Part shown: positions 38,805 through 59,675 of the stretch, piece after piece | Numbering within the stretch: the stretch's first letter is position 1 | Layout: every line of letters begins with the position of its first letter | Source: Rhodocyclaceae bacterium | GTDB taxonomy: Bacteria > Pseudomonadota > Gammaproteobacteria > Burkholderiales > Rhodocyclaceae | Assembly: GCA_016791145.1 (NCBI GenBank) | Contig: JAEUNJ010000217.1 | Span: 1 to 64,000, forward strand | DNA: 64,000 nt | Direction: 5' to 3' | The notes under the pieces: generated by a model | What the model was told of the DNA's origin: nothing | The model's database searches: none | The model's input: only the letters and a program-made list of their open reading frames with translations | Made by a program: the position numbers and the translations under genes

Positions 38805-39821
38805 TCAGCGGGCCGCCGCTCCCGTCCGGGCAGCCATCCTGGGCGGCAGCGGATGGAAGGCCCGGGCCACGTAGTCGACGATGGCGTCGATCTCGGCGGG
38901 TTTCAGCACGTCCCGCCAGGCCGGCATGGAGGTGTCCGGCAGGCCCTCGGCAATGGTCCGGGCCAGCCGCTCCCGGGTCATGCCGACCATGAAGCCCGCG
39001 TCCCGCAGGTCGCGCGGATGCGGTTCCAGGAAGGCCCCGATCCAGTTCCGGCCGCTGCCGTCGGCGCCGTGGCAGAAGGCGCAGTTGGCCTGGAAGAGCC
39101 GCTCGCCGCGCTTCTCGGCCGCCGAGAGGCCGCGCAGGCGGGGCACCACGTCGTGCCTGGCGTAGGGGCTGGCGCCCGCCAGGGCGTCGACGCCGGGCGG
39201 GGGATTGGCGAGGGAGAAGCCGTTGCGCGGGTAGGACAGCGGCCGCGCGTCCCAGGCGACGCCATCGTCGCCGGGCGCACCCCGGTCGTGGCAGCTCACG
39301 CAGGCGGAGAGATAGAGCCGCTTGCCCTCGGCCTGGGACGGGTCCAGGGATTCCCATTCCCGGGAAAGCGGAATCTCGCCGGTTGCAAAGGGATAGGCGG
39401 CCCGGTAGCGCTCGTGGCCCGGCCAGCCGTTCTCGGGGGTGTGGTAGCGCGTATTGACTGCCTTGTCGCGGACGAAGGCCTCGTGGACAAAGCGGGCCAC
39501 GTCCTCGATCTCCCGGGCGCTGATGACCCGGGCGAAGGACTTCATGGCCGTGCCCGGCCGGCCCTGGCGCAGGGTCTCCCGGATGTGCGCGGGCGTGAGG
39601 CGGGCCGGATCGGCCCGGGTGAAGTCGGTGGGCGGTGGGCTGACGAAGGTGGCCGCCAGGGTCTTGGCGTCGCCGGAGTAGCCGTGGCAGTAGTAGCAGC
39701 GGAAGTTGTAGACCGCGCGGCCGGCCGCCAGGGGGTCCGGGGGGGCTGCATGGACTGCGCCGGCGACCGCCAGGGCGCCCAGCCAGGCGGCGGCCGGCGG
39801 GCGCCGGCGGCGGGCCGCCAC
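38805..39821 (-). CDS. Triheme c-type cytochrome (cytochrome c class I domains)
   Basis: A 338-residue exported cytochrome with three CXXCH motifs: CYYCH, CVSCH and CAFCH. Each belongs to a monoheme class I domain; the axial Met candidates include LPDTSMPAWRDVL and RQGRPGTAMKSFARVI. The signal region is PPAAAWLGALAVAGAVHAAP. The start is GTG at 39821, two bases after the stop of the upstream paralogue, so the two are coupled. It is likely periplasmic, shuttling electrons between membrane complexes and terminal multiheme proteins. Confidence 0.85.
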   Translation of the reverse strand: MAARRRRPPAAAWLGALAVAGAVHAAPPDPLAAGRAVYNFRCYYCHGYSGDAKTLAATFVSPPPTDFTRADPARLTPAHIRETLRQGRPGTAMKSFARVISAREIEDVARFVHEAFVRDKAVNTRYHTPENGWPGHERYRAAYPFATGEIPLSREWESLDPSQAEGKRLYLSACVSCHDRGAPGDDGVAWDARPLSYPRNGFSLANPPPGVDALAGASPYARHDVVPRLRGLSAAEKRGERLFQANCAFCHGADGSGRNWIGAFLEPHPRDLRDAGFMVGMTRERLARTIAEGLPDTSMPAWRDVLKPAEIDAIVDYVARAFHPLPPRMAARTGAAAR

Positions 39822-40908: not shown

Positions 40909-40924
40909 TTCCCGGCCCTGGGAA
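40909..40924. promoter_or_regulatory. TTCCC-N6-GGGAA dyad upstream of the c5 gene
   Basis: TTCCCGGCCCTGGGAA, the same 16-base dyad type seen three times before each of the two sigma-54 promoters at 43574 and 45912. It starts 42 bases before the -24 element at 40951. A weak minus-strand GG-N10-GC match (40912-40899) overlaps it. Confidence 0.55.
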
Positions 40925-40949: not shown

Positions 40950-40964
40950 TGGCATATGGATTGC
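40950..40964 (+). promoter_or_regulatory. Putative sigma-54 promoter of the c5 cytochrome gene
   Basis: TGGCATATGGATTGC has the invariant GG at 40951-40952 and GC at 40963-40964, exactly ten bases apart, with good flanks (TGGCA, TTGC). Transcription would start near 40976, leaving a leader of about 36 bases with AAGGA before ATG 41012. Confidence 0.65.
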
Positions 40965-41011: not shown

Positions 41012-41395
41012 ATGGTGTGGAACGCGGCATTTGAGTTTCCCGCATGGAGGCGCTGGGCGATGGCCGTCCTGGGCATGCTGCTGCTCGCCGGCCTCCCGCT
41101 GCTCGGCCTCGCCCCGGCATGGACCGCCGCCAGCGGCGGGTCGGACCTGGGCCGGGAAACCTACGTGCAGACCTGCGCCCTGTGCCATGCGAAAGGCACG
41201 GCCAACGCCCCGCGCCTGGGAAACCGGGAGGAGTGGCAGGCCCGCATTGCCCGCGGCCGGCCGGAACTGCTCCGGTCGGTGCTGAAGGGCAAGGGCGCCA
41301 TGCCTCCCAAGGGCGGGAATGCCTCCCTGTCCGACCGGCAGGCCGCCGCCGCCCTGGATTACCTGCTGTCCCAGTTCGAGGAAGCCCATCGATGA
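41012..41395 (+). CDS. Monoheme cytochrome c5-type protein
   Basis: A 127-residue exported cytochrome c5. A hydrophobic N-terminus (WAMAVLGMLLLAGLPLLGLAPAW) precedes one heme in YVQTCALCHAKGTANAPRLGNREEW, and the axial Met region is KGKGAMPPKGGNASLSDRQAAAALDYLL. It closely resembles the N-terminal domain of the fusion cytochrome at 50849-51889. AAGGA lies seven bases before the ATG. A terminator-like hairpin follows 60 bases after the stop. Confidence 0.88.
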   Translation: MVWNAAFEFPAWRRWAMAVLGMLLLAGLPLLGLAPAWTAASGGSDLGRETYVQTCALCHAKGTANAPRLGNREEWQARIARGRPELLRSVLKGKGAMPPKGGNASLSDRQAAAALDYLLSQFEEAHR

Positions 41396-41519: not shown

Positions 41520-42257
41520 ATGGCGCCGCCGATCCGAGGCCCGGGAAGCGTGGCCCGCGCCGCCCTCCTGGGCACTGCATTCCTGCTTTTCGCCCTCCCC
41601 GCGCCGGCCGACATGCGGATGACGCGCCACAGCCTGGCCAGCCGACAGGGCGGCGCGCTCCCGGCGGACGAACGGGAGGTCTGCATCTTCTGCCACACGC
41701 CGCAGGTCACCGGGTCGAGGCCCGGCGCGCCGCGCTGGCAGGAATCCCTGGGGACGGACTTCGCCTTCACCCTCTACGACGACATCGGACGGCTCGGCTT
41801 CGACCGGACCACGGTGGGTTCCCAGTCCGTCGCCTGCCTCTCCTGCCATGACGCCAACCAGGCCCGCGAGGTGGGCCGCACCTCGGCCGACCATCCCTTC
41901 GGCATCCCCTACCGGGGCGCCCGGAAGTCCGCCTTCCAGCCGCCCCGGGAGGGACCCGAGCGCCCCGGGGACAGCCGCCACGTGCATGCGCGCCGGCTGG
42001 TCGCCGTGGACGACTTCCGCGACGCGAGCCAGGGCACCATCGAGAACCGCCGCTTCTGGTGGGTTTCCGCCTCCGGCGTCACCGCGCGGCGCACCCGCCA
42101 GGACCTGCCCCTGTACGGCCGGCGCGACGCCGAGACCGGCGAGGAGACGCCGCACATCGAATGCGGCAGCTGCCACGACCCCCACTCCCCGAACGGCCAG
42201 TTCCTGCGCGTCGCCGCCGGCGCGGGCGCCCTCTGCCTCACCTGCCACTCGAAATGA
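41520..42257 (+). CDS. Tetraheme c-type cytochrome, CHTPHG-family core
   Basis: A 245-residue exported protein with a signal peptide to about residue 31. CXXCH motifs start at residues 55 (CIFCHTPQ), 106 (CLSCHDAN), 215 (CGSCHDPHSPNG) and 239 (CLTCHSK). It shares the core of the genes at 44762, 45988 and 55885: RHSLAS near the mature N-terminus, DHPFG in the middle and a C-terminal CxSCHDPH-FLRV-CLTCH block. The first motif has CHTPQ instead of CHTPHG. It lies 16 bases before the beta-propeller gene and is probably co-transcribed with it. Confidence 0.88.
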   Translation: MAPPIRGPGSVARAALLGTAFLLFALPAPADMRMTRHSLASRQGGALPADEREVCIFCHTPQVTGSRPGAPRWQESLGTDFAFTLYDDIGRLGFDRTTVGSQSVACLSCHDANQAREVGRTSADHPFGIPYRGARKSAFQPPREGPERPGDSRHVHARRLVAVDDFRDASQGTIENRRFWWVSASGVTARRTRQDLPLYGRRDAETGEETPHIECGSCHDPHSPNGQFLRVAAGAGALCLTCHSK

Positions 42258-42273
42258 CATCGGAGATGCCCGC

Positions 42274-43434
42274 ATGACGCCCACAGCGCCCTTCCACCGG
42301 TCCCGCCCGGGCCCCGCCCGCGCGACTCTGGCCCGCCTGGCCGTCCTTCTCGCCGCGGCCCTCCTCGCCGGCTGCGTCGCCGTCGGCGACCGGCCCGCGG
42401 ATGCCGGGCGCAGGAGCGCCCAGGCCCTGGTGTTTCCGCCGCCACCGGACGAACCGCGCTTCGTGTATGAGCGCAGCATCCGCGGCAGCGCCGACGTGAT
42501 CCCGGACAGCGAGGAGTCGGCGCTGCGCCGGGCCCTGACCGGCGAGGGGCGCACCAGCGAGGGCCTGGGCAAGCCCTACGCCCTGGCCGTGCAGAAGGGG
42601 CGCATCTTCGTGTCCGATTCCGCCGAGCGCTTCGTGAAGGTGTTCGACGTGCCGGAGGGCCGCTATTTCAAGATCGGCGACGAGGACGGCGACGGCCAGC
42701 TGGTGAAGCCCCTCGGGCTGGACGTGGATGACCGCGGCAACCTCTACGTGGCCGACGGCACCCAGAAGCTGATCGTCGTCTTCGACCGGGACGGCAAGTT
42801 CCAGCGCCGCATCGGCGGCCCCAAGTTCTTCGACCGCCTGTCCAGCGTCACCGTGGACCCCAAGGGCGACCGGATCTATGTGGTCGACATCGGCGGCGTG
42901 ACCTCCGACCTGCACCGGGTGCGCGTCTTCGACGCGCGCTCCGGCGAGCACGTGCGGGACATCGGCAAGCGGGGCAGCGGGCCCGGCGAGTTCAACCTGC
43001 CGCGGGACGTGGCGGTGGGCCGGAACGGGCAGCTCTACGTGGTGGACGGCGGCAACTTCCGGGTCCAGATCTTCGACCGGGACGGGCGCTACCAGCAGAG
43101 TTTCGGGTCGGTGGGCAAGCAACTGGGCAGTTTCGCCCGCCCCAAGGAGGCGGCCACCGACCGGGAGGGGAACGTCTATGTGGCCGACGCGGCCTTCGGG
43201 AACTTCCAGATCTTCACGCCGGAAGGCGAACTCCTGATGTTCGTCGGCGACCGGGGGGAGCAGGACGTGCCGGGCCGCTACATGCTGCCGTCGGGGATCG
43301 CCGTGGACGAGGATGGCCGCATCTACTTCGTAGACCAGTGGTTCCGCCGCATCGACGTCTTCCGCCCCTATCCCATGAAGGCGGAGGACGGCTACCTGGG
43401 ACGGCGCCCCGGACCCAGGACGGCCAGGAAGTAG
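42274..43434 (+). CDS. NHL-repeat beta-propeller lipoprotein
   Basis: A 386-residue lipoprotein with the lipobox LLAGC (Cys34, +2 Val, consistent with outer-membrane sorting). After FPPPPDEPRFVYERSIRG comes a six-bladed NHL propeller. Blades read KPLGLDVDDRGNLYVADGTQKLIVVFDRDGKF, FNLPRDVAVGRNGQLYVVDGGNFRVQIFDRDGRY and FARPKEAATDREGNVYVADAAFGNFQIFTPEGELL. The gene at 43635 is a close paralogue and the one at 54705 a more distant one. NHL lipoproteins accompany multiheme cytochromes in Geobacter export clusters. The role here is likely scaffold or assembly factor. Confidence 0.9.
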   Translation: MTPTAPFHRSRPGPARATLARLAVLLAAALLAGCVAVGDRPADAGRRSAQALVFPPPPDEPRFVYERSIRGSADVIPDSEESALRRALTGEGRTSEGLGKPYALAVQKGRIFVSDSAERFVKVFDVPEGRYFKIGDEDGDGQLVKPLGLDVDDRGNLYVADGTQKLIVVFDRDGKFQRRIGGPKFFDRLSSVTVDPKGDRIYVVDIGGVTSDLHRVRVFDARSGEHVRDIGKRGSGPGEFNLPRDVAVGRNGQLYVVDGGNFRVQIFDRDGRYQQSFGSVGKQLGSFARPKEAATDREGNVYVADAAFGNFQIFTPEGELLMFVGDRGEQDVPGRYMLPSGIAVDEDGRIYFVDQWFRRIDVFRPYPMKAEDGYLGRRPGPRTARK

Positions 43435-43439
43435 GTCTT

Positions 43440-43522
43440 TTCCCGCCGGCGGGAAGCCCTTCTTCCCTGGGTCGGGAATCACCGAGGGACTCCGGGATGC
43501 CGGCCCTTCCCATTCTCCGGAA
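43440..43522. promoter_or_regulatory. Three enhancer-like dyads before the first sigma-54 promoter
   Basis: Three 16-base TTCCC-N6-GGGAA-type dyads: TTCCCGCCGGCGGGAA (43440-43455), TTCCCTGGGTCGGGAA (43463-43478) and TTCCCATTCTCCGGAA (43507-43522). Their start-to-start spacings are 23 and 44 bases. The third begins 67 bases before the -24 GG at 43574. The arrangement is repeated exactly at 45778-45860. They are likely binding sites for an NtrC-type activator. Confidence 0.75.
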
Positions 43523-43572
43523 AATCGCGCCGCGCCGGCCCGACGGAGCCGCCAGGTCCCTCGCCGGCCGCG

Positions 43573-43587
43573 TGGCACGCCTCGTGC
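43573..43587 (+). promoter_or_regulatory. Sigma-54 promoter of the propeller-pentaheme operon
   Basis: TGGCACGCCTCGTGC, with GG at 43574-43575 and GC at 43586-43587 ten bases apart, a near-consensus -24/-12 element. Transcription would start near 43599, about 36 bases before ATG 43635, with GGGGAGAGG in the leader. Confidence 0.82.
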
Positions 43588-43634
43588 ATACACTACTGCG
43601 CATAATCTCAGGGGAGAGGTCCCAGGACACCCGC

Positions 43635-44765
43635 ATGACGGCCCGGCGACCCGATACGATGAATACCTCCGCGCACACCCGCCGGCGCTCCGCCCGCCTC
43701 CTGTTGTCGGGGTGCGCCGGGTTCGCCGCGGGCATGGCGCTGCTTTCCGGCTGCGGCGTCCAGGCGCCACGCGGCGGCGAGAAGGAGGCACGCATCCAGC
43801 GGATCTGGCCGGAGCCCCCCAACCCCCCGCGCTACGTCTATGAGACGGCCCTGCGCTCCCTGGCCGACATCAAGCCGGAAACCGACCAGGAACGCCTGCA
43901 GCGGCAGTTGACCGGCCGCGGCGCCATCCCCTCGGACCCCGTGTTCCGCAAGCCGGCTGCCGTCGCGGCCCGCAAGGGGCGGATCTACGTGGCGGACCCG
44001 CCCACGTCCGCCGTGGTCGTCTTCGACGTGCCCCGCCGCAGCATCTTCCGCATGGGGGTGCGGGAACCCAACCAGGTCCAGAAACCCGTGTCGCTGGCCA
44101 TCGACGACCGGGACCGGGTCTACGTTCTGGATGGCCAGGCCCGCCGGGTGCTGGTCTTCGACGCCCTGGGCCTCTTCCAGTTCGCCGTGGGGGACCCCAG
44201 GGCCCTGCGCCAGCCGGCGGGCGTTGCGGTGAGCCCGGACGGCTCCAGGATCTACGTGGTGGACCGGGGCGGGGTCGAGGAGGAGGACCATCGGGTCGTC
44301 GCCTACGCGCCGGACGGACGCGAGTTGTACCGGCTGGGGCCCCGGGGAAGGAACCCCGGCCAGTTCAACATCCCGCTGGCGGCGAGCGTCGCCCGCGACG
44401 GCACCCTCCTCGTCCTGGACGCCGGCAATTTCCGCGTCCAGGCCTTCGACGCCGAGGGTCGCCACCGGCGCAGCTTCGGCGGCGTGGGGACCGAACTGGG
44501 CCGCTTCTCCCGTCCGCGCAGCATCGCCGCGGACCAGGACGGGAACGTCTTCGTGGCCGATGCCTCCTTCAACAACGTCCAGATCTTCGATGCCGAGGGC
44601 CGCCTGCTCATGTGGATCGGCCGTCCGGAACTGAACGACGGCCCCGGCCAGTTCGGCCTGCTGGCCGGCCTCGCCACCGACGAGACCGGCCGCCTCTACG
44701 TCACCGACACCTATCACGGCAAGATCGAGGTCTATCGCCGTGCCGTTCCCGGAGACCTGCAATGA
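43635..44765 (+). CDS. NHL-repeat beta-propeller lipoprotein
   Basis: A 376-residue lipoprotein with lipobox LLSGC (Cys40, +2 Gly). WPEPPNPPRYVYETALRSLADI parallels the start of the gene at 42274. The propeller includes KPVSLAIDDRDRVYVLDGQARRVLVFDALGLF, FNIPLAASVARDGTLLVLDAGNFRVQAFDAEGRH and FSRPRSIAADQDGNVFVADASFNNVQIFDAEGRLL. ATG 43659 is an alternative start eight codons in. Its stop overlaps the pentaheme start as ATGA, so propeller and cytochrome are produced together. This pairing repeats the 41520-42274 neighbours in reverse order. Confidence 0.9.
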   Translation: MTARRPDTMNTSAHTRRRSARLLLSGCAGFAAGMALLSGCGVQAPRGGEKEARIQRIWPEPPNPPRYVYETALRSLADIKPETDQERLQRQLTGRGAIPSDPVFRKPAAVAARKGRIYVADPPTSAVVVFDVPRRSIFRMGVREPNQVQKPVSLAIDDRDRVYVLDGQARRVLVFDALGLFQFAVGDPRALRQPAGVAVSPDGSRIYVVDRGGVEEEDHRVVAYAPDGRELYRLGPRGRNPGQFNIPLAASVARDGTLLVLDAGNFRVQAFDAEGRHRRSFGGVGTELGRFSRPRSIAADQDGNVFVADASFNNVQIFDAEGRLLMWIGRPELNDGPGQFGLLAGLATDETGRLYVTDTYHGKIEVYRRAVPGDLQ

Positions 44766-45676
44766 AAGCCCTGCGCAAGCTCGGCGGCCTGCCGCCCCTC
44801 CTCCTGGCGATCCTCGCGGCGCTGCTCTGGTTCGGGACGGCCCGGGCCGACACGGACCTGCCGACCAAGTTCTCCGACGTGGGCACCATCGGCAACACCC
44901 GCCACAACCTGACCCAGCGCCAGTCCTCCGGCGGCGGCCCCAACGGCTCGAGCATGGACCAGTACCGGAACGACTACCGGGAGATCTGCGTCTATTGCCA
45001 CACGCCCCACGGCGCCAATGCCGACGTGGCCCTGCCGCTCTGGAACCGCACCATCCGGAACACCACCTACACGGTCTACAGCAGCACCACCCTGACCAAT
45101 GCCACCGTCACGCAGCCGGGGGCGAACTCGCTCGCCTGCCTCTCCTGCCACGACGGCCAGACGGCGGTGGATTCCATCATCAACATGCCCGGCGCCGGCC
45201 GCTACCTCGAAAGCCAGAAGACCAGCCAGAACAACGCCTTCCTGAACACCTGGAACAATACCCGGGGGCCGGACGCGACGGTGCACCTGGGGCTGTCCGG
45301 AACCGAATGCCTGGCCTGCCATTCCTCCACGGCGGGCTTCATCGGCGCCGGGGCCACGGACTTCTCGGTGTTCGCCATCGGCACCAACCTGACCAACGAC
45401 CATCCGATCGGCGTCCTGCTGCCCACCGGCGAGGACTGGAAGGTGCCCACCGGAACCAAGGGCACGACCCGCTTCTTCGACACCAACGGCGACGGCCGCA
45501 TGGCTTCCAGCGAAGTACGGCTCTATGCCGGCGACCGGGGCCCGGAGGTGGAGTGCGCCTCCTGCCACGATCCCCATGGCGTCCCCAGCGGCGGCGCCGG
45601 CTCGCCCTTCATCAAGTCTTTCCTGCGCGTCACCCCGACGGGCAGCACCATCTGCCTGACCTGCCACAGCAAGTAG
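44762..45676 (+). CDS. Pentaheme c-type cytochrome, CHTPHG family
   Basis: A 304-residue exported protein with a signal peptide ending near ARA-D. Heme motifs start at residues 76 (CVYCHTPHGAN), 126 (CLSCHDGQ), 183 (CLACHSST), 265 (CASCHDPHG) and 298 (CLTCHSK). The four-heme core shared with the gene at 45988 (RHNLTQ, PLWN, NDHPIG, VECASCHDPH, FLRV) is complete; the extra heme is inserted between core motifs two and three. The mature protein is rich in Asn, Thr and Gly, as in surface-exposed cytochromes. It is coupled to the upstream propeller lipoprotein. Confidence 0.9.
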   Translation: MKALRKLGGLPPLLLAILAALLWFGTARADTDLPTKFSDVGTIGNTRHNLTQRQSSGGGPNGSSMDQYRNDYREICVYCHTPHGANADVALPLWNRTIRNTTYTVYSSTTLTNATVTQPGANSLACLSCHDGQTAVDSIINMPGAGRYLESQKTSQNNAFLNTWNNTRGPDATVHLGLSGTECLACHSSTAGFIGAGATDFSVFAIGTNLTNDHPIGVLLPTGEDWKVPTGTKGTTRFFDTNGDGRMASSEVRLYAGDRGPEVECASCHDPHGVPSGGAGSPFIKSFLRVTPTGSTICLTCHSK

Positions 45677-45777
45677 CCGCGTCCCTCCCGGCATCCGGCA
45701 GCGGCGATCCGCGCGGCTTGCCGCCGGGATACCCGATCGCAATACTCGGATTCCCGTTTCCTTTCAATCGCTTGTCC

Positions 45778-45860
45778 TTCCCGTCGCCGGGAAACCCTTC
45801 TTCCCTTCCCCGGGAACGGGAGCCCGACCACGCCGTCGGGAACCTTCCCGAATCCCGGAA
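45778..45860. promoter_or_regulatory. Three enhancer-like dyads before the second sigma-54 promoter
   Basis: TTCCCGTCGCCGGGAA (45778-45793), TTCCCTTCCCCGGGAA (45801-45816) and TTCCCGAATCCCGGAA (45845-45860). Spacings of 23 and 44 bases between dyads and 67 bases from the third to the -24 GG (45912) equal those at 43440-43574. In both sets the third dyad has CGGAA in place of GGGAA. Confidence 0.75.
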
Positions 45861-45910
45861 TTCCGGGGCCTGCCGGCCGATTCCGGCCACCCGCGCGGCA
45901 TTTCCCGGCA

Positions 45911-45925
45911 TGGCACGCCTCCTGC
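45911..45925 (+). promoter_or_regulatory. Sigma-54 promoter of the tetraheme gene
   Basis: TGGCACGCCTCCTGC, differing at one base from the promoter at 43573, with GG (45912-45913) and GC (45924-45925) ten bases apart. The expected start is near 45937. GAGGAAGGG at 45970-45978 lies before ATG 45988. Confidence 0.82.
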
Positions 45926-45987: not shown

Positions 45988-46869
45988 ATGGAAACGATCA
46001 AGACGCAAGGAAGCAAGGGGCGAGGCGTCATGCGCTGGTTGACGGCGGCCGCCCTGGTACTGGGTGTCGGATTCTCCGCGGGCGCCTACGCCGGCATCTC
46101 CGCCACGAAGCACAATCTCTCCACCAGCGGCACGGGTACCAACCACGTGACGGCCGGCACGGGCGCCGACCAGATCTGCGTCTTCTGCCACACGCCCCAC
46201 GGTGCGGACACCTCCGCCCCGGTTCCCCTGTGGAACAAGAAGCTCCCGGCCACGACCTACCAGACCTACGACCAGTTGAACACCTCGACGCTGGACGGCA
46301 AGGTCCTGTCGGTCGGTTCCGTCTCCCTCGCCTGCCTGTCCTGCCACGACGGCACCCAGGCCATGGACAACCTGATCAACGCCCCGGGCGCCGGCGGCTG
46401 GGATCCGGCAGGCGCGCGGCCGGCCGGGTGGACCTGGACCGGCGTCGGAGCCGACGGCCTGATGCCGGCCGGCATCACCAACATCGGGGCCGACCTGCGC
46501 AACGACCATCCGATCGGCATCCAGTATTGCGGTGGTGGCCTTTCCGGCACCGGCACGACCCTGAGCGGCTCCTGCAACGACGGCGACTTCATCGGCACGA
46601 CGGCCGACGGCTCCGGCCGCGTCGTCAAGACCGCCTCCATCAACACCAACCAGGTGTTCTGGGTCGAGGTCAACGGCAGCACCGGCCGGCAGAAGGACGA
46701 CATCGTCCTCTACACCCGCGATTTCGTGGGTTCCGGCGGCGTGGGCCCCTCCGTCGAGTGCGCCTCCTGCCATGACCCGCACGTGGAATCCAAGGGTTCG
46801 GACAACATCGCCTTCATGCGCGTGACGACGGCCGGTTCCCAGATCTGCCTGTCCTGCCACGTGAAGTAA
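45988..46869 (+). CDS. Tetraheme c-type cytochrome, CHTPHG family, monocistronic
   Basis: A 293-residue exported protein. The signal peptide is WLTAAALVLGVGFSAGAYA; the mature form starts near GISATKHNLSTSG. CXXCH motifs start at residues 64 (CVFCHTPHGAD), 116 (CLSCHDGT), 258 (CASCHDPHVES) and 287 (CLSCHVK). NDHPIG at about 172-177 offers a distal His. A further Cys pair (C181, C196) could form a disulfide in a Gly/Thr/Ser-rich loop. It alone lies between a sigma-54 promoter and a strong terminator, suggesting high, separate expression. It is a candidate structural subunit of an extracellular cytochrome assembly; that role is an inference. Confidence 0.9.
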   Translation: METIKTQGSKGRGVMRWLTAAALVLGVGFSAGAYAGISATKHNLSTSGTGTNHVTAGTGADQICVFCHTPHGADTSAPVPLWNKKLPATTYQTYDQLNTSTLDGKVLSVGSVSLACLSCHDGTQAMDNLINAPGAGGWDPAGARPAGWTWTGVGADGLMPAGITNIGADLRNDHPIGIQYCGGGLSGTGTTLSGSCNDGDFIGTTADGSGRVVKTASINTNQVFWVEVNGSTGRQKDDIVLYTRDFVGSGGVGPSVECASCHDPHVESKGSDNIAFMRVTTAGSQICLSCHVK

Positions 46870-47024: not shown

Positions 47025-48026
47025 ATGCACCTACCCACACGTCGCACCCTCGGAATGGCCGCCGTGCTTGCCACCCTTGGCCTGGCCGGCGTCGCCGTCG
47101 CGGCACCCGCCTCCGCCCAGGCCCGGGCCGAGGTCCAGGCGGAGGCCGACCTGTTTGCCCGCGTGAATGGCAAGCCCATCAGCCGCCGCGAGTTCTCCAC
47201 TGCCTACAGCAATCACGTCCGCCAGCAGTTCTATCACCGGGAGGTGGCCGAGGAGCGCCTGGCCGCGGCCCGCCAGGAGGTGGCCGACCGGCTGATCGAC
47301 CGGATCCTGCTGCTCGAGGAGGCGGAGCGCCGGGGCGTCGCCGCCGACCAGGCCAAGCTCGACGAGGTGATTTCCGGCTACGAGCGCCGGTATGCCGCGA
47401 GCCCCATGTGGCAGCAGAACCGGGAAAGCATGCTGCCCGGCCTGCGCAACCAGTTGGCCGACCAGAACCGCCTCGAACAGCTCGAACGACGGGTCCGGGA
47501 GATCGCCGATCCCTCGACGGACGAGGCGAGGGCCTTCTACGAGGCCAATCCAAACCTGTTCACCGAGCCGGAGAAACTCCACCTGCATACCATCCTGCTG
47601 AAGGTGGATCCGTCCTCCCCCAAAGCCGTGTGGGACGCGGCGCGGGAGGAGGCGGCGCGCATCGTCGCCCGCCTGCGCGGCGGCGCCGACTTCGCCGAGA
47701 CGGCCAGGCTCCACTCCAACGACCGCTCGGCCGGCGAGGGCGGCGACATGGGCTACCTGCACCTGGGCATGCTCCCGGAAGCCCTCCAGGCGCGGATCGA
47801 CCAGCTCCAGACCGGCGCCGTCGGCGATCCCATCGACGTGCTGGAAGGCGTCGGCATCTTCCGCATCGACGAGCGGGTCACGGCCCGCAAGCGCGAGTTC
47901 GCCGACGTGGCGGGGCGCGCCCGCGACCTGCTCAAGCGCGAGAAGGCGGAAACGGCCTGGAAGCAGTTCCTGGCCGGACTGCGCCAGACCGCCAGCATCA
48001 CCGTCTTCGAGCCCGCCTCCAAGTAA
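47025..48026 (+). CDS. Periplasmic parvulin-type peptidyl-prolyl isomerase
   Basis: A 333-residue exported SurA/PpiD-like protein. A signal peptide (LGMAAVLATLGLAGVAVAAPASA) is followed by a SurA-like N-terminal chaperone domain (FARVNGKPISRREFSTAYSNHVRQQFYHREVAEERLAAARQEV). The parvulin domain at about 185-285 reads LHLHTILLKVDPSSP, GGADFAETARLHSNDRSAGEGGDMGYLHLGMLPEALQARI and DVLEGVGIFRIDER. It should aid folding of exported proteins. Its place between the tetraheme subunit gene and the barrel gene suggests dedicated service to those. Similar isomerase genes accompany nanowire cytochromes in Geobacter. Confidence 0.9.
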   Translation: MHLPTRRTLGMAAVLATLGLAGVAVAAPASAQARAEVQAEADLFARVNGKPISRREFSTAYSNHVRQQFYHREVAEERLAAARQEVADRLIDRILLLEEAERRGVAADQAKLDEVISGYERRYAASPMWQQNRESMLPGLRNQLADQNRLEQLERRVREIADPSTDEARAFYEANPNLFTEPEKLHLHTILLKVDPSSPKAVWDAAREEAARIVARLRGGADFAETARLHSNDRSAGEGGDMGYLHLGMLPEALQARIDQLQTGAVGDPIDVLEGVGIFRIDERVTARKREFADVAGRARDLLKREKAETAWKQFLAGLRQTASITVFEPASK

Positions 48027-48137: not shown

Positions 48138-50357
48138 ATGTCATCGCACGGAGGAAGGCCCGGCCACCGGCCCCGCCGCGGGCACTGGCCCGGCCGTCGA
48201 GTGGACAGAGAAGCCCCCGCGGGTCACCGGCGGTCCCCCACCCATGGCAGGGTCCTGGGCGGCTCGCTGCTGGCCGCTGCCACGGTGGCCGGCGCGGCGG
48301 CGCCCGAGGGCGGCGCCGGGATGCTCGCGCCGCCGGAAGCCCCGCCCCTCCTGCTGGCCCAGTCCATCACCACCGGCTCCGCCCGCCCGCCACGCATGCC
48401 CGATGCATCGCCGTCCGGCGCCCCGGCCGGACGCCGCCCCGCGGTATCCGAGGAACCGCTCCGCCTCGCCCAGGCCGCCGGCGTGACCCCTCGCCCGGCG
48501 GACGAACCGGAGCCCCCGGTACAGCCGGCCGACGTGCGGGCGCCGCCCTCCCCGGTGAGCCGGGAGGCCGCGAGAAAGGAACAGGAACTGCCCGATCTGG
48601 ACGGTTCCACCCTGCGCCTAGCACCCATCCGCTGGGGCGGGAACTCCTCCACGGCGCTCTCCTGGTTCAACGACGGCGAGGGCGGCACGACGCTCAACAA
48701 CATCCAGTCGACGGTCCTGCGCGCCGCCAGCTACATCTACCAGCCCTGGTTCGCCCAGGTCTCCGGCAACCTGGGCCTGGTGTCCGGTACCACCAAGCGG
48801 ACCCTGAGCCAGCAGACCGCGCTCGGCGCCGGCGGCAGCGACGGCGGCAGCCGCAACAACACGCTCACCTGGGGCGGCACGCTGAACCTGTTTCCGCAGA
48901 GCCGCTTCCCGCTCCAGGTCTATGCCGACACCAGCGACAGCCGGGCGAGCGGGGCGCAGATCGGCACCCAATACACCGCCACCCGCTTCGGCTTCCGGCA
49001 GAACTACCGGCCCGAGGCGGGGACCGACAACTATTCCCTGAGCTACGACCGCAGCACCCTGGCCGGCGACATCGGCCGCAGCGTGGTCGATTCCCTGCAG
49101 GCGGGGTATTCGGTGTCGCTGGACGACCAGTCCATCGCCACCAACGCGCGCTGGGCACAGAATACGGGCGGCATCAACGGCGAGTCCGCGCGCCTGTTCG
49201 GGATCACCGGGACCCATTCCTGGCGGGTCCACGAGGACCTGAGCATCTCCACCACGGCCAACCTGACCGACAACCAGCTCCACTACCTGTCCGGCGGCAC
49301 CCTCGCCCTCAACCAGAGCCGCCTGCTGCAGGCCACCACCAACTTCCACTGGCGGCCCGACGAGGACCTGCCCCTGACGGTCACCGGAGGCGGGAGCTTC
49401 CTCGGCATGAGCACGCGGACGGAGAGCGGCGGCCTGGACCTGACCAACCTGACCGGCTACGCCGGCGCGAACTACCGCTTCTCCGCCAACCTGACGGGAG
49501 CCGCCACGGTCCAGGTGGCGCGCCTGGCCAGTGCCGGGACCGACCAGTTGATGCTGGCGGAAACGGCGTCTCTCTCGTATTCGGGAGACCCTCTCGTTTT
49601 CGGGAATTTCAATTACAACTGGAACACCGCCGGCACGCTCACCAACCAGGACATCACGGGCGGGAACGGCCTGCGCGGCGTCAATGTGCAGCTCGGCCAC
49701 GGGTTGAACCGCAGCATCGTGTTCACCCCCGGCAACGTCCTCAACCTGACCGTCGGCCAGAGCGTCTCCGCCGGGGCCGCCACCCGGACCGGCGGCACCG
49801 GGGGACTCGTCCACACGGCCGGCGCGTCGTGGCGCCTGGGCTACGGGGACCGCATCACCGGAACCTTCAGCGCCTCGGTCTCCGACACGATGACCACCGG
49901 CCAGTACGCCAACCACTACCAGTCCCTCAACGTCTCCGCCAACGGCCTCGCCCAGCTCTCCCGGCGTTCCGGCGTCTCGGTCGGCGGCAATCTGACCTGG
50001 TACCGGCAGGAGCAGCAGCAGACCCCGCTGCTGCAACTGGGCCAGCAGCTGTTCGACACCTCCAGTTCCCGGTGGAACGGCGGCGGCGCCGTGACCTACT
50101 TCCATCGCAATCCCTTCGGGGTCGCGAACCTGAACTACAACGCCTCCCTGCTGTTTACGACCGCCCAGACCAACCAGCGCCTGCTGGGCGCGGACCCCAA
50201 CGCGCCGGTCTGGCAGACCAGCACGGCCCTCACCCAGCGGCTCGAGTACCGGTCCGGCCGCCTGAGCTTCCAGGTCCTGGGAACCCTGGCGACGGTCAGT
50301 GGCAAGAAAAATGCTTCCATCTATTTCCAGGTCAGTCGCGATTTCGGCGCCCTCTGA
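48138..50357 (+). CDS. Predicted outer-membrane beta-barrel (porin of a cytochrome conduit)
   Basis: A 739-residue heme-free protein. The start is uncertain: ATG 48138 gives a long Arg/His-rich N-terminus, and GTG 48201 gives a normal signal peptide with hydrophobic core VLGGSLLAAATVAGAAA. A Pro/Ala-rich segment to about residue 150 follows. Then come some 25 alternating beta strands rich in Asn, Thr and Tyr with two-residue periodicity, such as ANLTGAATVQVARLAS, GVNVQLGHGLNRSIVFTPGN and YFHRNPFGVANLNYNASLLF, ending FQVSRDFGAL. The size fits conduit porins such as MtrB or OmbB, but no family motif was recognised. The function rests on context with flanking cytochromes. Confidence 0.75.
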   Translation: MSSHGGRPGHRPRRGHWPGRRVDREAPAGHRRSPTHGRVLGGSLLAAATVAGAAAPEGGAGMLAPPEAPPLLLAQSITTGSARPPRMPDASPSGAPAGRRPAVSEEPLRLAQAAGVTPRPADEPEPPVQPADVRAPPSPVSREAARKEQELPDLDGSTLRLAPIRWGGNSSTALSWFNDGEGGTTLNNIQSTVLRAASYIYQPWFAQVSGNLGLVSGTTKRTLSQQTALGAGGSDGGSRNNTLTWGGTLNLFPQSRFPLQVYADTSDSRASGAQIGTQYTATRFGFRQNYRPEAGTDNYSLSYDRSTLAGDIGRSVVDSLQAGYSVSLDDQSIATNARWAQNTGGINGESARLFGITGTHSWRVHEDLSISTTANLTDNQLHYLSGGTLALNQSRLLQATTNFHWRPDEDLPLTVTGGGSFLGMSTRTESGGLDLTNLTGYAGANYRFSANLTGAATVQVARLASAGTDQLMLAETASLSYSGDPLVFGNFNYNWNTAGTLTNQDITGGNGLRGVNVQLGHGLNRSIVFTPGNVLNLTVGQSVSAGAATRTGGTGGLVHTAGASWRLGYGDRITGTFSASVSDTMTTGQYANHYQSLNVSANGLAQLSRRSGVSVGGNLTWYRQEQQQTPLLQLGQQLFDTSSSRWNGGGAVTYFHRNPFGVANLNYNASLLFTTAQTNQRLLGADPNAPVWQTSTALTQRLEYRSGRLSFQVLGTLATVSGKKNASIYFQVSRDFGAL

Positions 50358-50399: not shown

Positions 50400-50852
50400 A
50401 TGAGAGACCCCCGTGCCTGGCTGCGGCGCATCGCCTTCGCCTGCCTCGTGGCCGCAGCCGGATTGTTCGTCGCGGACATCCCGGACGCCCGCGCCGAATA
50501 CGGCGACATCGTGATCAACAACTATTCCGACAACGCGGGCATGCGCCCGGCGATCTTCCCCCACTGGTTCCACCGGATCCGCTTCCGCTGCAAGGTCTGC
50601 CACGCCGACCTGGGATTCAAGTTCCAGGCGGGAGGCAACGACATCGACATGGTGAAGATCATCGATGGGCAGTTCTGCGGGGCCTGCCACAACGGCGACA
50701 TCGCCTGGTCGGTGGAAAACTGCAACCTCTGCCACACGGGCAAGCCCGGCACCCGGACCCAGGTCCACGAAAGCACGATCCAGAAGCTCGCCCAGCCCGC
50801 CGCGCCGCAGCCGGCGGCCACGGCGCGCAAGGGCAGGGAGGCCGCGAAATGA
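50400..50852 (+). CDS. Small triheme cytochrome (c7/c3-like)
   Basis: A 150-residue exported protein with heme motifs starting at residues 64 (CKVCHADLGFKF), 93 (CGACHNGD) and 108 (CNLCHTGKPG). The mature part opens EYGDIVINNYSDNAGMRPAIFPHWFHRIRFRCKVCH, with two His before the first heme as likely distal ligands. The tail after residue 125 is Ala/Pro-rich. It is a close paralogue of the protein at 53403-53789. It overlaps the next gene by ATGA. It is likely the periplasmic electron carrier feeding the barrel-associated conduit. Confidence 0.92.
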   Translation: MRDPRAWLRRIAFACLVAAAGLFVADIPDARAEYGDIVINNYSDNAGMRPAIFPHWFHRIRFRCKVCHADLGFKFQAGGNDIDMVKIIDGQFCGACHNGDIAWSVENCNLCHTGKPGTRTQVHESTIQKLAQPAAPQPAATARKGREAAK

Positions 50853-55805: not shown

Positions 55806-55888
55806 GCGCCCGCAACGCCCTCCGGCCACTGCCGCCCGGCGCGGGTCCGCGACCGGCCCCGCCGTTGCCGCCGGGGTGCCCGGGATGA
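55802..55888 (+). CDS. 28-codon open frame linking propeller and undecaheme genes
   Basis: ATG 55802 overlaps the propeller stop as ATGA, and the TGA at 55886-55888 overlaps the ATG of the undecaheme gene (55885). The peptide is MSARNALRPLPPGAGPRPAP and eight further residues, Pro/Arg-rich, with no domain. It may serve only to carry ribosomes from one gene to the next. It could also be chance in GC-rich DNA. Confidence 0.35.
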   Translation: MSARNALRPLPPGAGPRPAPPLPPGCPG

Positions 55889-58632
55889 GGCACGCGGTCC
55901 TGCGCGCGGCGCTGCTCGCCCTTTCGGCCGTGTCGGCCCTACTGCTGCTGCCCTGGGGGGACGCCCAGGCGGCGCGGGAATCCCGGGTCAGCCAGACGAA
56001 GCACAACCTCTCCTCGTCCAACCCGCAGCACGGACAGGCCGGCGTCGTCTCCTCGCCGACGGAATCGCAGATCTGCGTCTTCTGCCACACGCCCCACGGC
56101 GCCGACGCCTCGCAGCCGGCGCCCCTGTGGAACAAGACCATCCAGAGCAAGACCTACACGCCCTACACCTCGTCGTCCTTCGACGCGGTGGCGATCCAGG
56201 GCACCTCCGCCGGGCAGCCACTGGGCAGTTCCAAGCTCTGTCTTTCCTGCCACGACGGGGCCATGCAGATCGGCGCGGTCCGCGTGCTGCGGGGACAGGC
56301 CGACCAGGTGATACCCCTGGACAACACCAATGCCGGCACCATGCCCGAGGGGCGCGGGCTGGCCACGGGCTTCACCCGCAACCTGGGCGGCGCGACCCAC
56401 GACGACCTGTCCAACGACCACCCGATATCGGTCACCTACGACACCACCCTGACCACCCGGGACGGGGAACTGCGGGTGCCCGACGTCAGCCAGCGCTTCG
56501 GCAACGTCTTCGGCAAGCGCGTCCCCGGCGACCACTACAAGCCCATGCTGCCCCTGGAACCCACCGGCTCCGGGAACGCCGGCCAGATCCAGTGCACCAC
56601 CTGCCACGATCCGCACATCCGGGAGACCAACCTCGCCAACGAAAAGACGATCAAGTTCCTGCGCGCCAACCGCTTCCAGCTCGCCCAGCCTTCCGACGTC
56701 TACAGCGCCGTGGACGACATCATCTGCCTCGCCTGCCACGACAAGGGCATGCAGGGCAACGGCACGAGCTGGGCCTACTCGGCCCATGCCAATTCCCAGG
56801 TCGCGACCCAGACCTACAAGTCGGGGGCCGGCAGCGCCGCGGAGACCCGGGAGTTCCCGGACAACCTGCCGGTGTGGAAGGCCGGCTGCCTGAACTGCCA
56901 TGACACCCACACGGTCAGCGGCGCCCGGCGGCTGCTGCGGGAGGGCACGGATTCCGCGCTGGTGGGCGGCGTCAAGTCCGGCGGCGATCCCGCCCTGGAG
57001 GAGGTCTGCTACCAGTGCCATCGCGATTCCGCCGGTGCCGTCCTCAACTCGGTGGCCACGGTGCCCAACATCAAAGCCGATTTCGAGCTGGCGGGCGGTT
57101 ACCGCATGCCGATCAGGACGACGGACCAGGACACGGCCCTGGAGACCCACGACATCGGCGGCAGCTTCGACGATGGCTTCGCCGGAAGCGGGACCAGCGG
57201 TTCCAACTGCTCGACGGTGGACAACAAGTGCGGCGCCGATTTCGTGGAGTCCCGCGCGAAACTGGGTTTCGGCGCGCCCAACAACCGGCACGTGGAATGC
57301 ACCGATTGCCACAACCCCCACCGGGTCGTCAAGTTCCGCCTCTTCTCCGGCGCCGGCGGCGCCCTCGACGGGCCTCCCGACGCGGCCGGCACCCATGCCC
57401 ATACCGACACGGCCGGCTACACCCATACGAACGTGGCCTCCGGAGTCCTGCGCGGGGCCTGGGGCGTCGAGCCCTCCTACGGCAGCGCCTCCTTCCACGC
57501 CACGGCCAACAACTACACGGTCCGCCGCGGCGACCCCGGGAACGACAGCGTGCCGAACACCTCGGTCCCCGACAGCAAGGGCTACCTGACGCGGGAATAC
57601 CAGATCTGCATGAAATGCCATTCGACCTACGGCTATGCGAGCCCGCCCAACCTGCGCCTGGCGGCGACCCGGCGCGGCCTGACGGCCCAGGGCACCAACG
57701 GGCTGGGCCAATACACGGACCAGGCCAAGGAATTCCAGGCCCCCATCGGCCACGACACGGAACCCGCCAACCTGGGCACGGCCGCCGGGAATGCGGATCC
57801 CAATTCCAATGCCAACAACCACCGGTCCTGGCACCCGGTCACGCGGGCCACGGGCCGCACGCTGGGGTTGCGCGGCATCACCCGCACCGGCGGCACCGGC
57901 GCCGATACCTTCCCCTGGCGGCGTCCCTGGCTCAACGACGTGGGCGCCCAGACCATGTACTGCACCGACTGCCACGGCTCGGCCACCGACGCCAACCGGA
58001 CGGTGATCCCCAACGGCGGCGAGGACGGCAATCCCTGGGGGCCCCACGGGTCGGCCAATCCCTTCATCCTGAAGGCGCCCTGGTCCAGCGCCACCGGCAC
58101 GGGCAATCCGGACGACCTGTGCTTCAAGTGCCACGACTACGACACCTATGCCCGCGGCAAGGACGTGGACAGCGGACGCGGCTGCAACGACGACACCAAG
58201 GTCAACAAGACGGGGTTCAGCGACACCAAGAACTTCGGCAGCAAGAAGGGCGACCTGCACTGCTACCACCAGGAGCGCATCACCGGCAACGACATGCGTT
58301 GCTCCTGGTGCCACGTGGCCGTCCCCCACGGCTGGAAGAACAAGGCGCTGCTGGTGAACCTGAACGACGTGGGCCAGGAGGCGGGACAGCCGGTCGGCTC
58401 CAGCCGCGAGGTGGCCATGAACGGCAGCCTGCACGTCTACAACCAGGGGCCGTACTACATGAATGCCAAGCTGAAGGTGCGCAGCTTCAACCAGAGCGGG
58501 CGCTGGACCCCGGACAGTTGCGGGGCCCGGGGCAAGACCGGCGCCAACCTGATCGCCGGCAGCGGGGGACTGTCCAACAACACCGACGTCGGCGTGACCT
58601 GGATGAAGGCGGTATGCAACGACCCGCCATGA
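55885..58632 (+). CDS. Undecaheme c-type cytochrome, CHTPHG family
   Basis: A large exported cytochrome of about 915 residues. The signal peptide is AVLRAALLALSAVSALLLLPWGDAQA. The N-terminal third has the family core (KHNLSSSN, CVFCHTPHGAD, PLWN, CLSCHDGA, NDHPIS, CTTCHDPH, CLACHDKG). Seven more CXXCH follow: CLNCH, CYQCH, CTDCH, CMKCH, CTDCH, CFKCH and CSWCH, eleven in all. Long Asn/Gly/Thr-rich loops between hemes suggest surface exposure. GTG 55876 is an alternative start. It overlaps resB by ATGA. It is a candidate terminal reductase or oxidase-side cytochrome at the cell surface. Confidence 0.9.
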   Translation: MRHAVLRAALLALSAVSALLLLPWGDAQAARESRVSQTKHNLSSSNPQHGQAGVVSSPTESQICVFCHTPHGADASQPAPLWNKTIQSKTYTPYTSSSFDAVAIQGTSAGQPLGSSKLCLSCHDGAMQIGAVRVLRGQADQVIPLDNTNAGTMPEGRGLATGFTRNLGGATHDDLSNDHPISVTYDTTLTTRDGELRVPDVSQRFGNVFGKRVPGDHYKPMLPLEPTGSGNAGQIQCTTCHDPHIRETNLANEKTIKFLRANRFQLAQPSDVYSAVDDIICLACHDKGMQGNGTSWAYSAHANSQVATQTYKSGAGSAAETREFPDNLPVWKAGCLNCHDTHTVSGARRLLREGTDSALVGGVKSGGDPALEEVCYQCHRDSAGAVLNSVATVPNIKADFELAGGYRMPIRTTDQDTALETHDIGGSFDDGFAGSGTSGSNCSTVDNKCGADFVESRAKLGFGAPNNRHVECTDCHNPHRVVKFRLFSGAGGALDGPPDAAGTHAHTDTAGYTHTNVASGVLRGAWGVEPSYGSASFHATANNYTVRRGDPGNDSVPNTSVPDSKGYLTREYQICMKCHSTYGYASPPNLRLAATRRGLTAQGTNGLGQYTDQAKEFQAPIGHDTEPANLGTAAGNADPNSNANNHRSWHPVTRATGRTLGLRGITRTGGTGADTFPWRRPWLNDVGAQTMYCTDCHGSATDANRTVIPNGGEDGNPWGPHGSANPFILKAPWSSATGTGNPDDLCFKCHDYDTYARGKDVDSGRGCNDDTKVNKTGFSDTKNFGSKKGDLHCYHQERITGNDMRCSWCHVAVPHGWKNKALLVNLNDVGQEAGQPVGSSREVAMNGSLHVYNQGPYYMNAKLKVRSFNQSGRWTPDSCGARGKTGANLIAGSGGLSNNTDVGVTWMKAVCNDPP

Positions 58633-59675
58633 CCGTCCATGCCGTCGCCGTGACGCCGGGGCGCCGCGCCGTCCGCGGCGCCTGGCTGGCCCGGGCCGGT
58701 TCCCTGCGGCTGACGCTGGGCATCCTGCCGCTCCTCGCCGCGGGCGTGCTGGCGGCCTACGAGGGCCCGGCCGGGGACTACGCCACCTGGGTGCTCGTGG
58801 TGCCCCTGGCGCTGCTCGCCGGCAACCTGCTGGCCGCCGTCGCCAGCCACCCCGCCTTCCGCCGGCAGGGCGCGCTGCTCGTCTTCCACCTGGCCCTGCT
58901 GGCGCTGATCCTGCTCGTGGCGGCCTCCCGGCTCTGCTACCTGAAGGGCACCGCGGAGGTCCTCTCCGGCGGGGAGTTCGCCGGGCTGAAGGACCGGGAG
59001 GCCGGACCCTGGCACCGGGACCGGACCGGGGACCTCCGCTTCGAGAGCCTGGGATTCTCCATTGCCTACCGGCCCGGGCTGCGCCGCTCCGGAACGGAGA
59101 ACCGGGTGCGCTGGCGTGATGCCCAGGGCATTCCCCGCGAGCAGGTGGTCGGCGACCAGGAACCCCTGGTCCTGGATGGCTACCGCTTCTACACGACCCA
59201 CCACAAGGGCTTCGCCCCCGTCTTCTCGTGGCGCCCCGGGACGGGAACGGCGGACGTGGGCAGCGTGCACCTGCCCGCCTACCCGGAGCACGAGCACCGC
59301 CAATGGAACGAGTGGCGCCTGCCGGGGCTGGCCGAGCCGGTCTGGGTGCAGCTGGCCATCGAGGAGACCGTGCTGGACCCCGCGGGGCCGACCGCGTTCC
59401 GGGTGCCGGCACGGCATCACCTGGTGGTGCGGCACGGCGAGGAGCGGGTCACCCTGCGCCCCGGCGAGGCGGCCCGCCTCGCCGGCGGGGAGCTGCGCTA
59501 CCTGGAACTGCGGACCTGGATGGGGTATGCGGTCTTCCACGACTGGACCATCCCCTGGCTGCTGGCCACCTGCGTGCTGGCGATCGTCGCCCTGGCCTGG
59601 CACGTCCGTTGCAAGCACTTTTCCCGACCCTGGCGACCGGAAGCCCAGGCGGAGGAAAAAGGCATGGAAGGCTGA
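58629..59675 (+). CDS. resB: ResB-like cytochrome c biogenesis protein
   Basis: A 348-residue inner-membrane protein of the ResB (CcsB) family. Three N-terminal helices (LTLGILPLLAAGVLAAYEG, WVLVVPLALLAGNLLAAV, LLVFHLALLALILLVAASRLCYL) precede a large periplasmic domain with VLDGYRFYTTHHKGFAPVFSW. A last helix near 310-330 (WTIPWLLATCVLAIVALAWHV) follows. With CcsA it forms the System II synthase that moves heme out and attaches it to CXXCH. It is shorter than typical ResB proteins of about 450 residues or more. It is coupled to the undecaheme gene and to ccsA. Confidence 0.88.
   Translation: MTVHAVAVTPGRRAVRGAWLARAGSLRLTLGILPLLAAGVLAAYEGPAGDYATWVLVVPLALLAGNLLAAVASHPAFRRQGALLVFHLALLALILLVAASRLCYLKGTAEVLSGGEFAGLKDREAGPWHRDRTGDLRFESLGFSIAYRPGLRRSGTENRVRWRDAQGIPREQVVGDQEPLVLDGYRFYTTHHKGFAPVFSWRPGTGTADVGSVHLPAYPEHEHRQWNEWRLPGLAEPVWVQLAIEETVLDPAGPTAFRVPARHHLVVRHGEERVTLRPGEAARLAGGELRYLELRTWMGYAVFHDWTIPWLLATCVLAIVALAWHVRCKHFSRPWRPEAQAEEKGMEG

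Follow-up and report, generated by a model that had tools for sequence, protein, structure and literature searches.

The mechanism closest to the one considered here is that of the NtrB/NtrC-type systems, in which a regulator with a receiver, an AAA+ sigma-54 activator domain and a Fis-type helix-turn-helix acts through tandem upstream dyads on a promoter with GG-N10-GC spacing. The site bound by NtrC is of the TGCACC type, as against TTCC-N8-GGAA at the promoters described below. In related Betaproteobacteria, PrsK and PrsR form a conserved kinase/NtrC-type pair that exerts RpoN-dependent control over a PEP-CTERM surface-protein system, its targets carrying a TGGCAC...CTGC promoter and a predicted enhancer (PMC9850573, PMC1569441). 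On the side of the product, the nearest described protein is OmcE of Geobacter (7TFS), which polymerises as a filament; the physiological role of OmcE-type filaments has been described as an open challenge (PMC12954529). The main text of an RpoN study in G. sulfurreducens does not mention OmcE.

The locus analysed here lies in a window of 64,000 nucleotides (the whole stretch of DNA examined) and contains two promoter regions, each with three dyads. We propose that both are very probably sigma-54 promoters under the control of a single dedicated two-component system that consists of a histidine kinase and the NtrC-type response regulator EBP1, both encoded on the same contig beyond the window. 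Such a system would share with NtrB/NtrC the regulator domains, the tandem dyads and the promoter spacing, and with PrsK/PrsR the pairing of a kinase with an NtrC-type regulator, the sigma-54 promoter and the service of a single surface-protein system. Unlike the NtrB/NtrC-type systems, EBP1 is linked to nanowire cytochrome clusters, and unlike those of PrsK/PrsR, its predicted targets comprise multiheme cytochromes and NHL propellers. EBP1 scores 384 bits against the NtrC model TIGR01818 (cut-off 558.6) and 342 bits against the PrsR model TIGR02915 (cut-off 502.6); AtoC, at 479 of 714 bits, is the best among the NCBIfam equivalogs listed, none of whose cut-offs is passed. Since it falls below the NtrC and PrsR equivalog models, EBP1 is best regarded as working like both and filed under neither. 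The class of mechanism is known, and the dedicated nanowire-cluster regulon appears to be the new part: the literature searched yielded no regulator of the EBP1 type for omcE, and in the open-licence literature neither such a regulator nor control of OmcE-type clusters by sigma-54 was found described.

The features of the window are as follows.

40909 to 40924, plus strand: single dyad TTCCCGGCCCTGGGAA, marking a probable third regulon member (homologous genes in L065, L077 and L084)
40950 to 40964, plus strand: sigma-54 element TGGCATATGGATTGC before the monoheme gene (sigma-54 score)
41012 to 41395, plus strand: monoheme c5-like cytochrome, probable regulon member (homologues with dyad and sigma-54 promoters)
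41520 to 42257, plus strand: small multiheme cytochrome with four CXXCH motifs, upstream of NHL1 (family search, neighbourhood comparison)
42274 to 43434, plus strand: NHL1 beta-propeller gene, whose orthologue directly precedes the tetraheme gene in relatives
43440 to 43455, plus strand: dyad 1 of promoter 1 (TTCCCGCCGGCGGGAA), predicted activator site (PWM 16.4)
43463 to 43478, plus strand: dyad 2 of promoter 1 (TTCCCTGGGTCGGGAA), pattern match
43507 to 43522, plus strand: dyad 3 of promoter 1 (TTCCCATTCTCCGGAA), pattern match
43573 to 43587, plus strand: predicted sigma-54 -24/-12 element of promoter 1 (TGGCACGCCTCGTGC), predicted start about 43599
43635 to 44765 (alternative start 43659), plus strand: NHL2, an NHL beta-propeller protein with an N-terminal signal (PF01436, E=7e-28)
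44762 to 45676, plus strand: pentaheme c-type cytochrome with five CXXCH motifs, a paralogue of the tetraheme (PF09699)
45778 to 45793, plus strand: dyad 1 of promoter 2 (TTCCCGTCGCCGGGAA), pattern match
45801 to 45816, plus strand: dyad 2 of promoter 2 (TTCCCTTCCCCGGGAA), pattern match
45845 to 45860, plus strand: dyad 3 of promoter 2 (TTCCCGAATCCCGGAA), pattern match
45911 to 45925, plus strand: predicted sigma-54 -24/-12 element of promoter 2 (TGGCACGCCTCCTGC), predicted start about 45937
45988 to 46869, plus strand: OmcE-like tetraheme cytochrome, predicted extracellular nanowire subunit (profile match to 7TFS)
47025 to 48026, plus strand: PpiC/SurA-like peptidyl-prolyl isomerase, conserved downstream neighbour (family search)
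48138 to 50357, plus strand: putative beta-barrel of the outer membrane, a conserved downstream neighbour without a Pfam match

Promoter 1 precedes the genes for the NHL2 propeller and the pentaheme cytochrome, and promoter 2 those for the tetraheme, the isomerase and the putative barrel. An exact pattern search placed both arrays of TTCCC-N6-(G/C)GGAA dyads, and the -24/-12 elements behind them, at the positions that a sequence-only reading had given, with start-to-start distances of 23, 44 and 67 in each promoter. In both cases the distance to the -24 element is 133 bp for the first dyad and 66 bp for the third, and the form common to the two is TGGCACGCCTC(G/C)TGC. Each 15-mer has GG-N10-GC spacing, is close to TGGCAC-N5-TTGC and reaches a sigma-54 score of 11.3 of 12.1, in keeping with the earlier proposal of sigma-54 promoters. 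The remaining cluster genes in the window have no recognisable dyad.

Could such matches arise by chance in GC-rich sequence, where sigma-54-like and palindrome-like motifs are to be expected? Degenerate sigma-54 matches are indeed common in this window, and dyads common at random sites had been named as an outcome that would speak against the promoters. We counted 14 strand-matches to TTCCC-N6-SGGAA in the window, whereas 100 shuffles of it led us to expect 0.41 and never gave more than 2. Pattern searches of the whole genome (3.94 Mb) returned at least 95 places with TTCC-N8-GGAA, 11 of those listed falling inside the 64-kb window, and none of the 17 lone TTCCC-N6-SGGAA matches on other contigs whose flanks were read had a convincing sigma-54 site just downstream.

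Related genomes bear on the same question. The 23-bp pair (TTCCN8GGAA-N7-TTCCN8GGAA), sought in 399 genomes of the family, occurred in four others and its reversed control in none; in three of the four it sits between the NHL1 and tetraheme orthologues and is followed by a sigma-54 element. Tetraheme homologues turned up at 80 loci in a scan of named genomes, the hosts belonging to Beta- and Gammaproteobacteria, Magnetococcales, Nitrospirota and Nitrospinota. In the 500-bp regions upstream of these homologues TTCC-N8-GGAA is 22-fold enriched over the rest of the loci (40 in 44 kb versus 56 in 1,380 kb) and usually precedes a sigma-54 promoter. Combining a dyad matrix, trained on these same promoter regions, with the sigma-54 score across the 80 loci, the window and part of the contig returned 42 composite sites, 35 of them at the tetraheme gene, and none in reversed sequences. 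Exact composite patterns in the whole genomes of 36 relatives gave 22 matches versus 4 in the control; half (11) lie at the tetraheme gene, 5 in the cluster on the same contigs and 6 elsewhere, those outside the cluster being mostly intragenic and near the control in number. The dyad and sigma-54 promoter thus recur upstream of tetraheme orthologues in Betaproteobacteria, Magnetococcales, some Gammaproteobacteria, Nitrospirota and Nitrospinota, and this conservation across genera refutes a chance origin, to which we assign a negligible probability.

The spacing of the dyads is conserved in a looser form. Among 57 promoter regions, 28 close pairs of neighbouring dyads were found, 15 of them 20–24 bp and 10 of them 30–33 bp apart, which corresponds to two or three helical turns; no pairs occur in shuffled regions, and the phasing is stronger than random spacings would give (p<0.001). 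While the 23-bp pair or a 20–33 bp pair recurs in relatives, the exact triple 23/44 geometry was not seen outside the window genome in these 57 regions. In relatives there are mostly one or two dyads, at a variable distance from the promoter, and we rejected the triple spacing as a general rule.

What is the origin of the identical geometry of the two promoters? The sequence-only reading held that the DNA between the motifs is not conserved and that selection keeps the geometry. The first statement is only partly right, in that the intervening DNA has diverged to near saturation, but 48 of 108 non-motif positions are identical where 33 are expected (P=0.0015), and this identity is concentrated in the spacer between dyads 1 and 2 (6/7) and in the interior of the -24/-12 element (4/5). 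It follows from this residual likeness that the promoters are probably old, diverged duplicates that preserved their motifs and spacing, rather than independent convergences, and the second statement needs amending accordingly: motifs and spacing were retained, with duplication coming first and selection not acting alone. In relatives the order of genes is NHL1, promoter, tetraheme, PpiC and barrel, and the propeller/pentaheme pair is located elsewhere, sometimes in opposite orientation. In the window genome the pair stands between NHL1 and the tetraheme gene with a promoter copy of its own, so duplication followed by retention under selection is the simplest history; the arrival of the propeller/pentaheme module between the two genes is the most likely occasion for the second copy. 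The same residual identity and apparent insertion could be taken to mean that the matching geometry is a mere recent promoter copy, with no bearing on selection or joint control. We consider this highly improbable, given that the motif bases and spacing are intact, free of any indel, in otherwise nearly saturated DNA, and that the same motifs recur in other genera, beyond the reach of duplication.

The genome encodes about 21 full sigma-54 activators (enhancer-binding proteins, EBPs). Three genes on the contig beyond the window are relevant to the choice among them.

Contig 68333 to 69871: histidine kinase directly upstream of the EBP1 gene (HisKA and HATPase, with HAMP at cut-off)
Contig 69859 to 71235: EBP1, NtrC-type response regulator, 24 kb downstream of the tetraheme gene in the same cluster
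Contig 77790 to 79175: EBP2, preceded by a kinase (76395 to 77780)

EBP1 has a PF00072 receiver, a PF00158 sigma-54 AAA+ domain and a PF02954 Fis-type HTH, all above cut-off; its loop reads GAFSGA in the window genome and GAFTGA in most orthologues. Orthologues (47–79% identity) are present in 36 of 50 tetraheme-bearing genomes, and a related kinase adjoins them in 33 of 35 loci. A sigma-54 promoter is found in 35 of the 36 genomes with EBP1 versus 1 of the 14 without (35/1/1/13; Fisher 5e-10, a value inflated by shared ancestry because the genomes without EBP1 are mostly Gammaproteobacteria); requiring the dyad as well gives 3e-7. Promoter and EBP1 are jointly absent at about five separate places on the tetraheme tree, and shared descent therefore does not explain all of the co-occurrence. 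One exception (L129) is an unlinked tetraheme paralogue in a genome whose EBP1-linked tetraheme has dyad and promoter. The other (L075) is a draft genome from the Magnetococcales with the promoter and no EBP1 found, whose near-identical sister (L073) has both. Five genomes with EBP1 lack a clear dyad at the threshold used (L058, L060, L070, L076 and the paralogue L129). Wherever both genes lie on one contig (24 of 24 genomes) they are 4–39 kb apart, mostly in the same orientation, and all five complete EBPs found within 10 kb of a tetraheme gene elsewhere are closest to EBP1 (53–54% identity) among the own-genome EBPs extracted for this comparison. The DNA-binding domain (GDRR-AA--LGIGLSSLYRKLEE) and the recognition helix (LSSLYRKLE) are near-invariant down to Nitrospirota and Nitrospinota.

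The dyads might instead serve another regulator, be it EBP2, a further EBP or a non-EBP factor, with the linked two-component system acting elsewhere. EBP2 and its kinase are on the same contig, and a dyad with a sigma-54-like site (75134/75210) lies just upstream of them. This reading seems unlikely to us: in a phylogenetic profile covering EBP1 and EBP2 of the roughly 21 EBPs, strong matches to EBP2 occur in only 11 of the 50 tetraheme genomes and do not track the promoter, whereas the distribution of EBP1 follows the promoter almost without exception, with linkage to the tetraheme gene in every contiguous case. Co-occurrence, linkage and cross-genus conservation of the dyad and sigma-54 promoter strongly support the earlier suggestion that one NtrC-type activator controls both units. 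The expectation of an orphan enhancer-binding protein has to be corrected, the likely activator, EBP1, being a classical response regulator with an adjacent cognate kinase in the same cluster. As to the site upstream of EBP2 (contig C110, 75134 to 75225, beyond the window; L035, 12135 to 12226), it has CGGCATGCCTCGTGC preceded by one dyad and a second, degenerate one, and lies upstream of genes for a secreted protein of about 60 residues and a possible barrel.

For control by EBP1, we propose the following model. The membrane histidine kinase would phosphorylate EBP1, and activated EBP1 dimers would bind the TTCC-N8-GGAA dyads through the Fis-type HTH; with dyads two or three helical turns apart, the dimers could assemble on one face of the DNA. 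The resulting oligomer would remodel the RNA polymerase–sigma-54 complex at the TGGCA-N7-TGC element, making both promoters dependent on RpoN. Promoter 1 would then switch on the NHL-propeller/pentaheme unit, and promoter 2 the OmcE-like nanowire subunit together with the downstream PpiC protein and barrel.

A profile of the tetraheme protein and 73 homologues matches the OmcE filament subunit 7TFS with E=3.2e-38 and another cytochrome entry, 9YUQ, with E=1.1e-35. Among the 74 homologues the four CXXCH histidines show little or no variation, and neither do H8, H37, H140 and H231 (numbering of the trimmed, aligned sequence); these four further histidines fit the requirement of a four-heme bis-histidine protein. 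AlphaFold gave a pLDDT of 56, with low confidence from 3 as from 74 sequences. The tetraheme is a clear OmcE homologue with the same four CXXCH motifs and four distal histidines; OmcE is known as a filament and the window protein from its sequence, from which we infer that it too may polymerise. The window also encodes a large cytochrome with 11 CXXCH motifs (55876 to 58632), whose N-terminal part matches 7TFS (E=1e-17); this protein, an OmcE-like domain with a long multiheme tail, is perhaps a filament anchor, adaptor or cap. Tetraheme copies that are the second or third in their genome (L163, L164, L165, from Polaromonas and Gallionellaceae) are unlinked to EBP1 and lack a recognisable dyad, and these paralogues therefore appear to be under different control.

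The regulon probably extends beyond the two units. Monoheme c5-like genes with dyad and sigma-54 promoters in three relatives are homologous to the gene at 41012, so that the monoheme cytochrome probably belongs to the regulon and would be switched on from the 40950 element. A propeller/pentaheme orthologue in a different gene arrangement has its own dyad and sigma-54 promoter (L095), another such pair has the sigma-54 part only (L081), and a composite promoter lies ahead of a multiheme gene in L110. In three further genomes composite promoters precede cytochrome c maturation genes that are CcmF-, CcmC- and ResB-like as read from their sequences by eye rather than by family search, and these genes of the same cluster may likewise come under the switch. 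Nearly all genes with composite promoters are in or near one extracellular electron-transfer cluster.

It is a broader and evenly balanced proposition that OmcE-type nanowire clusters in several phyla share one dedicated master switch, a single, previously unnamed two-component system whose kinase would sense the state of the cell surface or the electron acceptor. If so, pairs of TTCC-N8-GGAA set two to three helical turns apart, with a sigma-54 promoter, would mark the parts that are made together, namely the nanowire subunit, propellers, the monoheme carrier and cytochrome c maturation genes, and the binding signature would tell which neighbouring proteins belong to the nanowire machine. When and how bacteria outside Geobacter make cytochrome nanowires is largely unexplored. 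A conserved, dedicated switch would offer a genetic handle, in that the loss of a single regulator should silence the system and its activation should start it, and the periplasmic domain of the kinase points to the signal.

Several further sites were noted. A perfect dyad (TTCCCATTCCCGGGAA, window 39351 to 39366) lies within a minus-strand cytochrome gene with no strong sigma-54 element nearby. At 50268 to 50315, inside the end of the barrel gene and before a triheme gene at 50400, a dyad (TTCCAGGTCCTGGGAA) is followed 32 bp on by a sigma-54-like TGGCAAGAAAAATGC. A perfect sigma-54 consensus (TGGCACGTCCGTTGC, 59598 to 59612) stands about 60 bp ahead of a CcsA/CcmC-like gene; since no TTCC-N8-GGAA dyad lies closer than 300 bp, it was not assigned to this system. 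In a Magnetococcales bacterium (L078, minus strand, 16141 in the reverse-complement count), a composite site with a dyad score of 23.0 and a sigma-54 score of 12.1 of 12.1 precedes a possible PilZ-domain gene, a possible link to c-di-GMP.
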